64,000 bases of DNA from contig JAJFGG010000097.1 of assembly GCA_021776235.1 (NCBI GenBank), forward strand, positions 1 through 64,000, read 5' to 3'. Position numbers and translations under genes: made by a program. The stretch is from Alphaproteobacteria bacterium (lineage in GTDB: Bacteria; Pseudomonadota; Alphaproteobacteria; GCA-2731375). Numbering within the stretch: the stretch's first letter is position 1; every line of letters begins with the position of its first letter. Positions 6,878 to 48,616 of this stretch are shown here, one piece after another. The notes beneath the pieces are model-generated. The model was not told the DNA's origin. It searched no databases and was given only the letters and a program-made list of their open reading frames with translations.

Positions 6878-8929
6878 TTGAGCAAGGTTATAGGCTGCGA
6901 CGTTGGCGGCACCTTCACCGATCTGATCCTCTTGGATGAGGCCGCCGGCGAGGTCAGAATTGCCAAAGTTCCCACCACGCCGGACAATCAGGCCATCGGC
7001 GTCATGCAGGCCGTGGCCGCCGCCGGCGCCGAGTGCAGGGATTTATCCTTGCTGGTGCACGGTACCACGACAACCACAAATGCCCTTTTGGAGAAAAAGA
7101 TCGCGCTGTGCGGTCTTATCACCACGGCTGGATTTCGCGATGTACTGGAACTGGGCCGGCGGACGCGGCCCAATGCCTATGGCCTGATCGGTTCGTTCGA
7201 ACCATTGGTCAGCCGCGAATACCGCCTGGAAGTGGATGAACGCATGGACGCCGGGGGCAATGTGGTTACCCCGCTGGACGAAGACGGCGTGCGCCGGGCG
7301 GCCCGGCAATTGGCCGATCAGGGCTGCGAAAGCCTGATTATTCATTTTCTCCACGCCTATGCCAATGACGCCCATGAGCGCCGGGCGGCGGAACTTGCCG
7401 CCGAGGTCTGGCCCAATGGCCACATCACGGTCGGCAGTGCTGTTTTGGCGGAATTTCGGGAATACGAGCGCGGCGTGGCGGCCTCGGTCAATGCCGCCGT
7501 GCAGCCCGTGCTGGCGCGTTATCTGGCGCGCCTGCGGAAGGAACTGATGGACGGCGGCTATGACCGCGATTTGCTGGTCATGCAGGGCAATGGCGGCACC
7601 GTATCCTCGGCGATCGTCGCGGATAGCGCGATTAACACGGTGATGTCCGGCCCGGCATCCGGCGTCATGGCCGCCGCATATACCGGCGCGCGCATTGGCT
7701 TCCAGCATATCGTCACCTACGACATGGGCGGCACATCGTCCGATGTGGGGCTGATCCAGGATGGTATTCCGGCAACCTCGTCGGAATTGCAACTTGAGTA
7801 CGGTATGCCGATCCACGTGCCCATGGTGGATGTGCATACCATTGGTGCGGGCGGCGGCTCCATCGCCTTTATCAATGATGCGGGCATGCTACAGGTCGGT
7901 CCGCGCTCGGCGGGCGCCGTGCCTGGCCCGATCTGCTATGGCAAGGGCGGCGAGGAACCGACCATCACCGACGCCAACCTGGTCCTGGGCCGCCTGAATC
8001 CCGAGGCCATGCTGGCCGTGGACAGCAGCGTCTCCATGGCGCGGCTGCGCCAGTGCCTGGTTGATACGGTGGGCGCGCCTTTGGACCTGGATGCCGAGGC
8101 CGCGGCGGCGGCCATTCTGCAAATCGCCAACGACCGGATGGCCGGCGCGATCCGCATGGTCAGTTTGGCCCGGGGCCATGACCCCCGCGATTTCGCGCTG
8201 TTTGCCTTCGGTGGCGCCGGTCCCCTGCATGCCACGGCCATGGCGGCTGAACTGGCCATTCCCAAGGTCCTGATCCCGGCCAGGCCAGGCATCACCAACG
8301 CCATCGGCTGTGTTGTCGCCGATGTGCGCCACGACTATGTCAACACCGTGAACCAGGCCATGGCGGATGTGGATATGGACCGGGTGCATCAGATCCTGGC
8401 GGCGCAGATCGCCGAAGGCCGGGCCACGATCCTGGGCGAAGGCGTCGAGGTGGAGGACGAAGTTCTGGTACATGCGGCGGAAATGCAGTTCCAGGGCCAA
8501 AGCCATATGCTGCGCATACCCCTGGACAGCGCCGTCGTCGGCCGGGACGCCATCCAGGCGGCGTTCGAGGAAGCTTATTTTAATCGCTTTTCCCTGCAAC
8601 TGCCCGAAATACGGGCCGTCCTGGTCACCTTGCACACGGCCGTCATCGGCCGCCGGCGCGAGGTTGCCCTGGCATCACTGATGGACCCCGCGATCCGCGC
8701 GGCGGATGTTGCGGGGGCCCAGCGCGGCAGCCGCCAGATCTGGTTTCAGGGCGGCTGGCAGGAAACCCCCGTCATCGCGCGCGACGCCCTGCCCATCGGG
8801 GCGCGCTTTACGGGACCGGCGGTTCTGGAACAGCTCGATACCACCATCATCATTGAACCGGGCAACGAGGTGATGGTGGATGATGCCGCCAATCTGGTGA
8901 TCGACGTGGCCCCGGCCTTTCGGAGTTGA
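6878..8929 (+). CDS. hyuA: Hydantoinase/oxoprolinase subunit A (ATP-dependent amidohydrolase)
   Basis: 683 residues starting with TTG three bases after the UPF0280 stop; AAGGGA lies upstream. The N-terminus IGCDVGGTFTDLILLD and HGTTTTTNALLEKK are the ATP-binding signatures of HyuA/5-oxoprolinase proteins. Further motifs are MSGPASGVMAAAYTG, DMGGTSSDVGLI and GAGGGSIAF, and the C-terminus fits the family. The family couples ATP hydrolysis to opening of cyclic amides such as 5-oxoproline, hydantoins and caprolactam, or to carboxylations in acetone/acetophenone carboxylases. With HyuB next door and a heteroaromatic reductase upstream, lactam opening is the preferred inference. Confidence 0.88.
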   Translation: MSKVIGCDVGGTFTDLILLDEAAGEVRIAKVPTTPDNQAIGVMQAVAAAGAECRDLSLLVHGTTTTTNALLEKKIALCGLITTAGFRDVLELGRRTRPNAYGLIGSFEPLVSREYRLEVDERMDAGGNVVTPLDEDGVRRAARQLADQGCESLIIHFLHAYANDAHERRAAELAAEVWPNGHITVGSAVLAEFREYERGVAASVNAAVQPVLARYLARLRKELMDGGYDRDLLVMQGNGGTVSSAIVADSAINTVMSGPASGVMAAAYTGARIGFQHIVTYDMGGTSSDVGLIQDGIPATSSELQLEYGMPIHVPMVDVHTIGAGGGSIAFINDAGMLQVGPRSAGAVPGPICYGKGGEEPTITDANLVLGRLNPEAMLAVDSSVSMARLRQCLVDTVGAPLDLDAEAAAAAILQIANDRMAGAIRMVSLARGHDPRDFALFAFGGAGPLHATAMAAELAIPKVLIPARPGITNAIGCVVADVRHDYVNTVNQAMADVDMDRVHQILAAQIAEGRATILGEGVEVEDEVLVHAAEMQFQGQSHMLRIPLDSAVVGRDAIQAAFEEAYFNRFSLQLPEIRAVLVTLHTAVIGRRREVALASLMDPAIRAADVAGAQRGSRQIWFQGGWQETPVIARDALPIGARFTGPAVLEQLDTTIIIEPGNEVMVDDAANLVIDVAPAFRS

Positions 8930-39292: not shown

Positions 39293-40174
39293 TTAAACCT
39301 TGCCTTCGTCTTTCAAGGCCTTGTAGCGCTTTTTCGCTTCGATCCAGTCATCGTAGGCATCGCCCTCCAGGAACGGTTGTTCGTCCGAGAAGATCAGCCG
39401 CTTCCAATCGTCGCCGCCGGGCCATTGCAGGGGGGCTTGTACGGTACTGCGCGGCGCCGTGGCGTTTTCCAATTGCGCCAGGGCCAGCTCAAAGACCTGT
39501 TGTTGTTCGGCCACCTGAAACGGCCGGCCGCAGGGATTGCCCAGGGGATAGTCAACGAAGACCAGGCGGGCCACACCGCAATATTCGACAATATCGCGGG
39601 CATTGGCGATTAAGACCGTGGGAATGCCGTTTTCTTCCAGGTACCGGGCGACCAGACTCACGGTCTGGTGGCAGACCGGTCAGACCGGCGTCAGGATAAC
39701 CGCGTCGACCTTGTCCTCGCGGCAGCGGCGCAGCACTTCCGGCCCGTCCACGGTCAGGGTGCGGCGGTGGCTGTAGGCGGTAAAGACACCATGCAGCCGC
39801 GGCGCCACACTGCCAATTCGGCCATTCGCCGCCGCCTCTTGCAGGCGCGTGATCGGGAAGTAGCTGTCGACATCATCCAGGTTGGTGGCGTATTTGTCGT
39901 AATGCTCCTGGCGGCTGTATAGCCGATCCAGGGGCGTGTCGGCGGCAATGGAGTAGACGTTGCCAACGAACAGTTGCTCGGCGTGATTTTCGTCATCGCC
40001 CTCGCCGCGCACGGTAACGTCCGAGGTCGAGACCAGAGATATTCGGGCCTCCGATAAAGGCTTATCCAGTCTGGTAAAGGGGACTTCGTCAAAATGGGCC
40101 CACACATAGGGCTTTTCATATCCCTGACCGAGGTAGTATTCCCGCGTTTTGTCGATATATTTTACATGGGACAC
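39293..40174 (-). CDS. GrdB/PrdB-family selenoprotein with in-frame UGA (Sec165)
   Basis: Two same-frame segments of 164 and 128 codons are joined by a TGA at 39680-39682. Reading it as selenocysteine gives a 293-residue protein with LTPV-U-PVCHQTVSLVARYLE, a UxxC redox motif. The N-terminus (KTREYYLGQGYEKPYVWAHFD) and the post-UGA IPTVLIANARDIVEYCG match the glycine/sarcosine/betaine/D-proline reductase selenoprotein B family, whose members carry Sec or Cys at this place. Start is GTG with AAGGAA upstream. A SECIS-like hairpin follows the UGA. Genes for Sec synthesis are not in the window. First gene of a four-gene operon. Confidence 0.82.
39644..39679 (-). promoter_or_regulatory. Candidate bacterial SECIS hairpin
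   Basis: Directly 3' of the UGA on the minus strand: CCGG, 7 bases, CCAGAC, loop CGTGA, GTCTGG, 4 bases, CCGG. The six-base-pair upper stem and outer CCGG/CCGG stem place the loop 18 bases after the UGA, with G second in the loop, as bacterial SECIS rules expect. A competing 7 bp hairpin (CGGTCTG/CAGACCG) could also form. Confidence 0.65.
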
Positions 40175-40276
40175 TATAGGTTCCTTCGTTTGGTCTGATG
40201 CGGATGCCGTTATGGCGCGGCGACGCCCAGTTTGGGCGCAAGCGCGCGTGTGACGGCAAGCAAATGGGATTTTGCC

Positions 40277-40966: not shown

Positions 40967-41067
40967 AGGGAGATTTCTTTACCATTGGCAGGTAAACTTG
41001 ATAATCGCTTGCAGTTGGCCGGTCGGCGTGGAATGTGTCGGCACCGGATTATGGAGACCTGAGGGCC

Positions 41068-42426
41068 ATGGATTCTGCTGTCCTTCTAAAATATGACCAG
41101 CGTGTACCGCGCTATACCTCCTATCCAACGGCGGTCCAGTTCACTGATCAGGTGGGCCCGGAGCAACACGCCCAATGGTTGGGTGAAGTGGGCCGGGAGG
41201 AACCGGTTTCACTATATGTCCACGTCCCGTTTTGCGAGGTATTGTGCTGGTATTGCGGCTGCAATACCCAGGTGGGCCGGCATCAGAATACGTTCGAAAA
41301 CTATACCGATCTGGTCTGCCGGGAAATTGACATGGCGGCGGCGCACCTGCACACCAAGCCACGGGCGGCGGCAGTGCACTGGGGCGGCGGCACGCCCAGC
41401 AGCATCGGGCCCGCGCGCATGGCCCGGATCATGGCCAAATTGCGCCAGCATTTCGACTTTTTGCCCGATGCGGAAATTGCCGTGGAAATGGACCCCCGGG
41501 TTCTCTCTGCCGATGATATTGTCACGCTGACCCGTGACATGGGCGTCAATCGGACCTCCATCGGGGTGCAGGATTTCGACGCCGAGGTGCAGCGGGCGGT
41601 GAACCGGGTACAGCCCTATGAACTGGTGGCCGAGACAGTGAAGAATTTGCGGGCCGGGGGCATTGCCGATCTGAATCTGGATCTGATGTACGGCCTGCCG
41701 TTTCAGCGCCAGGATAATTTTGGCACCTCAGCCGACCTGGCGGTTGGTCTGGCGCCGGAGCGGATGACCCTGTTCGGCTATGCCCATGTGCCCTGGATGT
41801 TCTCGCACATGAAGTTGATCAAGGATGAAGATCTGCCGAATGCGGAAGAGCGCCTGACCCTGTTCGACGAGGCCCTGCAACGGCTGAATGCGGCCGGTTA
41901 TATCCACATCGGTCTGGATCATTTTTCCAAGGCCGGTTCGGAAATGGCGGTGGCCCAAGAGGAAGGCCGCTTGCACCGCAATTTTCAGGGCTATACCACC
42001 GACACCGCCAAGACCCTTCTGGCCTTTGGCGCCTCGGCCATTTCCACCCTGCCCAGCGGCTTCATCCAGAATAAATCCGCCGCCAGGGCCTATATGCAGG
42101 CCATCAAGGACGGCGGTCTGGCCACTGCCCGCGGCGTCGGCCTCAGCGACGAGGACCGCCTGCGCTCCCATATTATCGAGCGTTTGATGTGCGACTTCCA
42201 GATCGACCTGGAAGCGATCTGCGATCAATACAACGTGCCGGTCAGGCATCTCGCGGATGATATGGACAAGCTGCGGCCCCTGATCGACGATGATCTGGTG
42301 GCGGTGGACGGCTGGCGCGTCGATGTGCTGCCCCGGGGCCGCATGCTGGTGCGCATGGCCTGCGCCGCCTTTGATCAATATCACGCGCCCGACCCGGAGA
42401 AACCGGCCCACGCCCGGGCCATTTAA
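41068..42426 (+). CDS. hemN: Oxygen-independent coproporphyrinogen III dehydrogenase
   Basis: 452 residues from the ATG at 41068 (GAGGG upstream); a GTG at 41035 would add 11 residues. The N-terminus KYDQRVPRYTSYPTA is typical. Radical-SAM cysteines are CEVLCWYCGC (CxxxCxxC), followed by GGGTPSSIG and EMDPR. It converts coproporphyrinogen III to protoporphyrinogen IX without O2. Presence argues for growth at low oxygen, which fits the oxygen-independent heterocycle operon. Confidence 0.93.
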   Translation: MDSAVLLKYDQRVPRYTSYPTAVQFTDQVGPEQHAQWLGEVGREEPVSLYVHVPFCEVLCWYCGCNTQVGRHQNTFENYTDLVCREIDMAAAHLHTKPRAAAVHWGGGTPSSIGPARMARIMAKLRQHFDFLPDAEIAVEMDPRVLSADDIVTLTRDMGVNRTSIGVQDFDAEVQRAVNRVQPYELVAETVKNLRAGGIADLNLDLMYGLPFQRQDNFGTSADLAVGLAPERMTLFGYAHVPWMFSHMKLIKDEDLPNAEERLTLFDEALQRLNAAGYIHIGLDHFSKAGSEMAVAQEEGRLHRNFQGYTTDTAKTLLAFGASAISTLPSGFIQNKSAARAYMQAIKDGGLATARGVGLSDEDRLRSHIIERLMCDFQIDLEAICDQYNVPVRHLADDMDKLRPLIDDDLVAVDGWRVDVLPRGRMLVRMACAAFDQYHAPDPEKPAHARAI

Positions 42427-48045: not shown

Positions 48046-48129
48046 TCCGGCCCCACAAATTGTCTATACAAGCGCATTTTTGCGATGCCACCATTGTCAC
48101 ATCGCGTACATACTCCGGGGCCGGTGGGT

Positions 48130-48445
48130 GGGTCCAGGAATTAGTGGGGGGCTTCTGTTGCCCGGTGCCCCCCGAACCGCGCTTGCCTTTTAATTAGGCA
48201 GCGAGCACCATTTCATTATCATTGGCACTTGTAGAAATGGCCCGATAACGGTGGAGCCATACCGAACGCAAACCTTGTCTTTACCACGCGCGTCGATCCT
48301 GTTTCGCCCCCATCAGCAATGCACCGAAGGGCCGATATCAACACCGATCTGCGGCGATTCGACCACTCATGCACTCCTGGTGGAGGCGCCGGGTACTGCC
48401 CCCGGGTCCGCTACGTTTATTCCACAAGGCGTTTAGCGCCATAGC
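48130..48445 (-). ncRNA. ssrA: Two-piece (circularly permuted) tmRNA
   Basis: Minus strand. The acceptor piece ends CGCCTCC-ACCA at 48378, and its T-arm is CCCGGGGGCAGTACCCGG. After a spacer the coding piece starts at 48311 with GGGGGCGAAACAGGATCGAC, and GGGGGCG pairs with CGCCTCC (one G-U) to rebuild the acceptor stem. The tag frame from GCC at 48226 reads ANDNEMVLAA and stops at TAA (48194-48196). A strong GGGGGGC/GCCCCCC hairpin follows. Outer boundaries are estimates. Permuted tmRNA is typical of alphaproteobacteria. Confidence 0.9.
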
Positions 48446-48616
48446 CGGACAAGCCGGCACTGCAAATATAAGCAATTTTGCCCCATTTTTAAAGGGCCTC
48501 GGGCAATCTGCCTGAAAAAACCCGATTTCCCGGGCGCCGCGATTGGCCCTCAGGCGCCGACGGGGTATCTTGCCCTTGGCCGGTGTACGCGGCTTTTCGT
48601 CAACAGGGAGATTTCG

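Follow-up and report, generated by a model that had tools for sequence, protein, structure and literature searches.

The locus at positions 39293..40174 of the window (the whole stretch of 64,000 nt that was analysed) raises the question of whether a TGA within a reading frame is decoded as selenocysteine (Sec) and, if so, what kind of protein results. The sequence-only reading had taken two segments in the same frame, separated only by the TGA, as one GrdB/PrdB-like protein of an alphaproteobacterium. The gene lies on the minus strand, which that reading did not state, and 40174-39293 is a single frame running from a GTG start at 40174 to a TAA stop at 39295-39293 with one internal TGA, confirming that the two segments belong together. 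The product has 293 residues, with U165 (codon at 39680..39682, minus strand) in the context DAVILTPV-U-PVCHQTVSLVARYLE. Comparison with homologues, in which Sec and Cys exchange at this codon, places it at the redox position in the motif U-P-V-C, as had been claimed. A plausible ribosome-binding site (AAGGAA, 40181..40186, minus strand) is located 6 nt 5' of the start, and the start position is shared with the closest orthologues, which use GTG or ATG. A TGA flanked by open frames of >100 codons on each side occurs at 20 places in the 64 kb of this GC-rich window, so the layout alone proves little and homology must carry the case. A permuted alphaproteobacterial tmRNA with the tag ANDNEMVLAA was also observed in the window (48103-48497, minus strand).

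Homologues from named public genomes have TGA at the site in 11 of 14 cases, and TGC (Cys) is found in the three from Bradyrhizobium. The 70 distinct family sequences collected have TGA (65) or TGC (5), in line with the earlier expectation that relatives carry Sec or Cys there. In the tree, the five Cys sequences are nested among the Sec sequences and a single change is needed. The class-wide alphaproteobacterial sample adds further Cys members, including one of the UPLD type, and the exchange has therefore probably happened more than once. Two genomes with one TAG each (G084 and G209) were considered for UAG-coded Sec and rejected, because the site codes for Cys in each of them and the TAG falls elsewhere; in G084 (L175) the TAG lies in the N-terminal part of a Cys-type homologue, which suggests a pseudogene or an assembly error.

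A bacterial-type SECIS hairpin follows the UGA at 39648..39672 (minus strand), with a core stem ACCAGAC/GUCUGGU at 39669-39651 and a loop CGUGA at 39662-39658. The stem begins 7 nt and the loop 17 nt after the UGA. Bacterial SECIS elements are described in PMC1088965 as a stem-loop directly 3' of the UGA with a small apical loop containing G, and the hairpin agrees with this description in its loop sequence and distance. Pairing was scored on 26 distinct Sec sequences, with columns 11-20 paired with columns 26-35 (numbered from the U of UGA). In this model, 90.2% of cells were paired versus 79.0% after shuffling, and sliding the partner by 1-3 columns reduced pairing to 23-37%. The covariation score was 0.376 versus 0.166 for shuffled alignments (0 of 500 shuffles as high), 27 cells were changed on both sides of the stem, and two members carry a synonymous double change across it (CAG..CTG to CAA..TTG). 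Codon choice is also frozen: of the 46 Sec genes with Ser at +8, 44 use AGT, a codon that accounts for 7% of Ser in the rest of these genes, and GTG encodes the Val at +7 in 64 of 65 Sec genes. This codon choice is mostly lost in the Cys members. When the hairpin was compared with resampled synonymous codons, its minimum-energy z-scores were modest (mean -0.83 for Sec genes and -0.28 for five Cys genes), so folding energy is weakly informative and the case for the SECIS rests on covariation and codon choice.

The search of the genome for Sec machinery recovered selA, selB, and selD, but not selC. The selA (583 bits) and selB (414 bits together with a neighbour in frame) genes adjoin on contig C166. 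A SelD gene at C46:22266-23192 (L019; 382 bits) is itself interrupted by an in-frame TGA, located where the catalytic residue is expected (GGG-U-GSK). A second SelD at C25:131418-132335 (L020) is without TGA and lies within a 760-residue frame, the first part of which looks like a pyridine-nucleotide-disulfide oxidoreductase, an apparent fusion. In this assembly of 174 contigs, searches for selC using Rfam, ARAGORN, and two sequence patterns returned tRNA-Ser, other tRNAs, and chance matches. Nesting of selC inside selB is known (Mukai 2021; PMC8124441); this was checked and rejected here, as the end of this selB and the next 330 nt hold no tRNA. The locus that carries it in relatives (hydrolase / tRNA-Sec / thiolase) was without an intact counterpart in this assembly, with scattered matches at 65-79%. 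ARAGORN found tRNA-Sec (UCA) in 13 of 15 relatives (ten from the same genus, two more from the same family, and G041), the two without it being G011 and G025. Since 12 of the 13 relatives within the family are positive, the simplest reading of the missing selC would be an assembly gap.

The Sec/Cys exchange, the SECIS hairpin, the purifying selection across the UGA described below, and the presence of selA, selB, and selD uphold the proposal of a UGA-encoded Sec in an alphaproteobacterial protein, and the UGA at 39682-39680 is almost certainly decoded as Sec165, judged from these sequence comparisons. The AlphaFold model of the protein (pLDDT 91.7) places residue 165 after a strand (158-162) and directly before a helix (166-181). 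U/C165 and P166 are invariant in the family alignment, and C168, H169, and Q170 are nearly so. No useful sequence or fold match was obtained among solved structures in the copy of the PDB searched. The best overall explanation, to which a probability of roughly 0.7 is assigned, is a genuine Sec165 selenoprotein acting as a stand-alone selenol/thiol reductase within a set of paralogues with pathway-specific copies. The stand-alone reductase role taken by itself is reasonably probable from the motif, the homology, and the missing partner. In the proposed mechanism, SelA, SelB, SelD, and tRNA-Sec would decode the UGA as Sec165 under the direction of the downstream hairpin, the selenolate of Sec165 would attack the substrate, Cys168 would resolve the intermediate by forming a selenenyl-sulfide, and re-reduction of the enzyme would come from a thioredoxin-type dithiol donor. 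Asp replaces the resolving Cys in six paralogue sequences (UPLD), so resolution by Cys168 cannot be family-wide and the UPLD group would have to resolve differently.

Nine paralogues are present in the genome, each with one TGA and with 33-100% identity to the protein of the window. The eight other copies (G000, L047-L054) are on contigs C3, C60, C170, C38 (two), C140 (two), and C50. The C50 copy and the one at C140:88184 are of a longer form of ~410 residues, and the extra C-terminal part of this form, searched in L121, matched no Pfam family. Together with SelD, the nine copies bring the genome to at least 10 selenoprotein genes. Of the 60 relatives searched, 14 belong to the same family, and 13 of these have 2-11 copies. 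Among the 99 matches in relatives, 96 contain a single TGA and are otherwise free of stops, two contain a TAG in addition to the TGA, and one is a fragment at a contig edge, limited to residues beyond the TGA site. In an even sample of 240 alphaproteobacteria the family was present in 28, and the nine copies of this genome were the maximum there. The motif sub-groups are UPVCHQ (50), UPLDHQ (6), and UP[NLF]CT (8, mostly ~410 residues).

The gene neighbourhoods bear on what these proteins do. An amidohydrolase (PF07969, PF01979; 37789..39258, minus strand), which we take by resemblance to be of the N-acyl-D-amino-acid deacylase type, begins 34 nt downstream of the selenoprotein gene and is probably on the same transcript. 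It is followed after 5 nt by a PLP enzyme of the D-serine dehydratase / 3-hydroxy-D-aspartate aldolase type (PF01168, PF14031; 36710..37783, minus strand), which scores 198 bits with the BhcC model, under the cut-off of 690 bits. The order selenoprotein, amidohydrolase, PLP enzyme is kept in four genomes, and in one of them (G004) the amidohydrolase overlaps the selenoprotein stop. On the other side, the divergent gene for an NnrU-family protein (PF07298; 40232..40966, plus strand) is conserved in position, and is followed by a conserved gene (41035-42426) that is HemN-like by sequence. Class III CoA-transferases are found beside three paralogue groups and beside the Cys form of Bradyrhizobium sp. 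LHD-71, and other paralogues also adjoin acyl-CoA dehydrogenases and an enoyl-CoA hydratase. In a conserved cluster (L118, C38:1-16000, and similarly L150-L152), a UPVC and a UPLD paralogue were observed a few kb apart with two DUF2817 genes, acyl-CoA dehydrogenases, a luciferase-like monooxygenase, AAA and CoxE-like VWA proteins, and a class III CoA-transferase. Each paralogue probably serves a different catabolic pathway. A D-amino-acid-derived substrate for the window copy is a doubtful guess from the neighbouring genes, as neighbours differ between paralogues. These catabolic clusters, with their CoA-transferases, acyl-CoA dehydrogenases, and enoyl-CoA hydratase, speak against a general antioxidant or protein-disulfide oxidoreductase with a thioredoxin-like role, in place of a catabolic reductase, as does the lack of any match to the thioredoxin fold in sequence and Foldseek searches. 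Such a general role would fit the UxxC motif, which is generic for redox proteins, and the cytochrome oxidase gene near one paralogue; it is judged unlikely, and of the alternatives it survives best.

A true D-proline or glycine/betaine-type reductase subunit, with a pyruvoyl partner too diverged for the Pfam model or lost in an assembly gap, is less likely again and considered improbable. The protein passes the cut-off of PF07355 (GRDB superfamily; 30.6 bits versus 22). The best NCBIfam model is TIGR04483 (PrdB, equivalog; 95.4 bits, E 3.4e-27), which favours this alternative, as does an operon that appears related to D-amino acids, yet the family cut-off is 300 bits, about three times this score. 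TIGR01917 (GrdB) gave 40.2 bits versus a cut-off of 602.2. The pyruvoyl partner PrdA/GrdE (PF09338) had no match in any of 17 genomes, 13 of which are ≥90% complete and ≤5% contaminated; the control genomes gave no match either, and sensitivity was checked with a real PrdA, which the model recognised at 80 bits. The "GrdB/PrdB-like" designation of the sequence-only reading therefore holds for the clear homology to PrdB and GrdB and not for the function. As the scores reach at most a third of the equivalog cut-offs and PF09338 had no match, the names proline reductase and glycine reductase seem unwarranted and "PrdB-like" would be the appropriate term; since no pyruvoyl partner was found, a function as D-proline or glycine reductase is improbable. 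In Peptoclostridium acidaminophilum (L163, NZ_CP007453.1), the annotated prdB at 8016-8729 lacks an annotated prdA in the 8 kb flanking it on each side, and is possibly another stand-alone member, in a genome of Clostridia.

Conservation after the UGA bears on the alternative that it is a programmed or leaky stop, with a 164-residue N-terminal protein as the main product and read-through incidental. Open frames lie on both sides of the codon, and read-through in Sec decoding is commonly incomplete. The nearest orthologue, however, is 91% identical both upstream and downstream of the TGA, and dN/dS against three orthologues is 0.06-0.10 before the TGA and almost as low (0.09-0.15) after it, so the downstream half is translated and constrained. 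Invariant residues in that half include G183, R203, P210, G212, G216, and Q224, and the Cys homologues are full length; a stop is thus highly improbable. The chance of a sequencing error or pseudogene, in which the TGA would be a damaged TGC or TGT and with which the missing selC of this assembly would agree, is practically negligible, because the same TGA occurs in independent assemblies (MAGs) at 79-91% protein identity, 96 of the 99 family matches have exactly one, and each of the nine paralogues has one followed by a conserved hairpin.

The Sec165 selenoprotein of the window is thus real and largely expected, and Sec in a PrdB-like family is not new; the expansion is the interesting part. 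As a tentative proposal, put at somewhat under even odds, the paralogues would form a new class of single-subunit, partner-less GrdB/PrdB-type selenoreductases, expanded family-wide in marine alphaproteobacteria with terminal oxidases, with every member linked to its own CoA- or D-amino-acid-based catabolic pathway. The paralogue group probably performs reductive chemistry other than that of D-proline reductase. Bacteria rich in selenoproteins (six or more genes) are mainly Deltaproteobacteria, Clostridia, and Synergistetes, mostly anaerobes (PMC5029168); the alphaproteobacterial lineage studied here is also selenoprotein-rich, and the family has almost always retained Sec in place of Cys. An annotation blind to Sec would cut all nine genes at the UGA. 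The open-access literature, to which the search was confined, contained no account of the multi-paralogue expansion, the missing partner, or the CoA-transferase, acyl-CoA dehydrogenase, and D-amino-acid neighbours.

The closest known sequences are the marine metagenomic "proline reductase PrdB" UxxC selenoproteins of Zhang and Gladyshev from 2005 and 2008, with 42 sequences from the Sargasso Sea and 235 from GOS (PMC1088965, PMC2398784). They share with the present family Sec in UxxC, PF07355, a bacterial SECIS, and a marine origin, and they are treated there as metagenomic sequences, whereas host genomes with multiple paralogues, no PrdA/GrdE found, and catabolic neighbours are available here. 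The "PrdB" label carried by abundant marine selenoproteins since 2005 may hide unrecognised enzymology, given that the search for a pyruvoyl partner found none and that acyl-CoA and D-amino-acid catabolism genes are among the neighbours. PrdB itself (TIGR04483; for example, Peptoclostridium and Terrisporobacter) is homologous over residues 33-248 of 293 with U-x-x-C-H at the same place, but is 31-33% identical, the window protein is ~50 residues longer, and no prdA was found in the genome. GrdB/GrdF/GrdH (TIGR01917/TIGR01918; glycine/sarcosine/betaine reductase selenoprotein B) have Sec at the same position and match in their C-terminal half, but the window protein is without their N-terminal half of ~200 residues, scores 40-50 bits versus cut-offs of 65-800, and has no GrdE (PF09338) found with it. 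Cloacibacillus porcorum MFA1, with the fluoroacetate reductase FarB/FarE and eight Sec GrdB paralogues (one without the conserved CxxC), resembles this genome in its many Sec GrdB-type paralogues and their substrate diversification; unlike here, it is an anaerobe, and a GrdE-type partner is encoded along with FarB, for which joint action with GrdA and GrdC is proposed (PMC10838667). As a precedent, it shows that diversification to other substrates is possible for GrdB-type selenoproteins, in that case alongside a GrdE-type partner (PMC10838667). The homologues of Roseomonas and Haematobacter (annotated as "glycine/sarcosine/betaine reductase selenoprotein B family protein") and Bradyrhizobium (unannotated) are 43-48% identical and have CPVCHQ or CPICHQ, with Cys in place of Sec, eroded SECIS codons, and a position nested within the Sec tree. 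As these genera are in culture, their Cys homologues make the reduced substrate directly testable.
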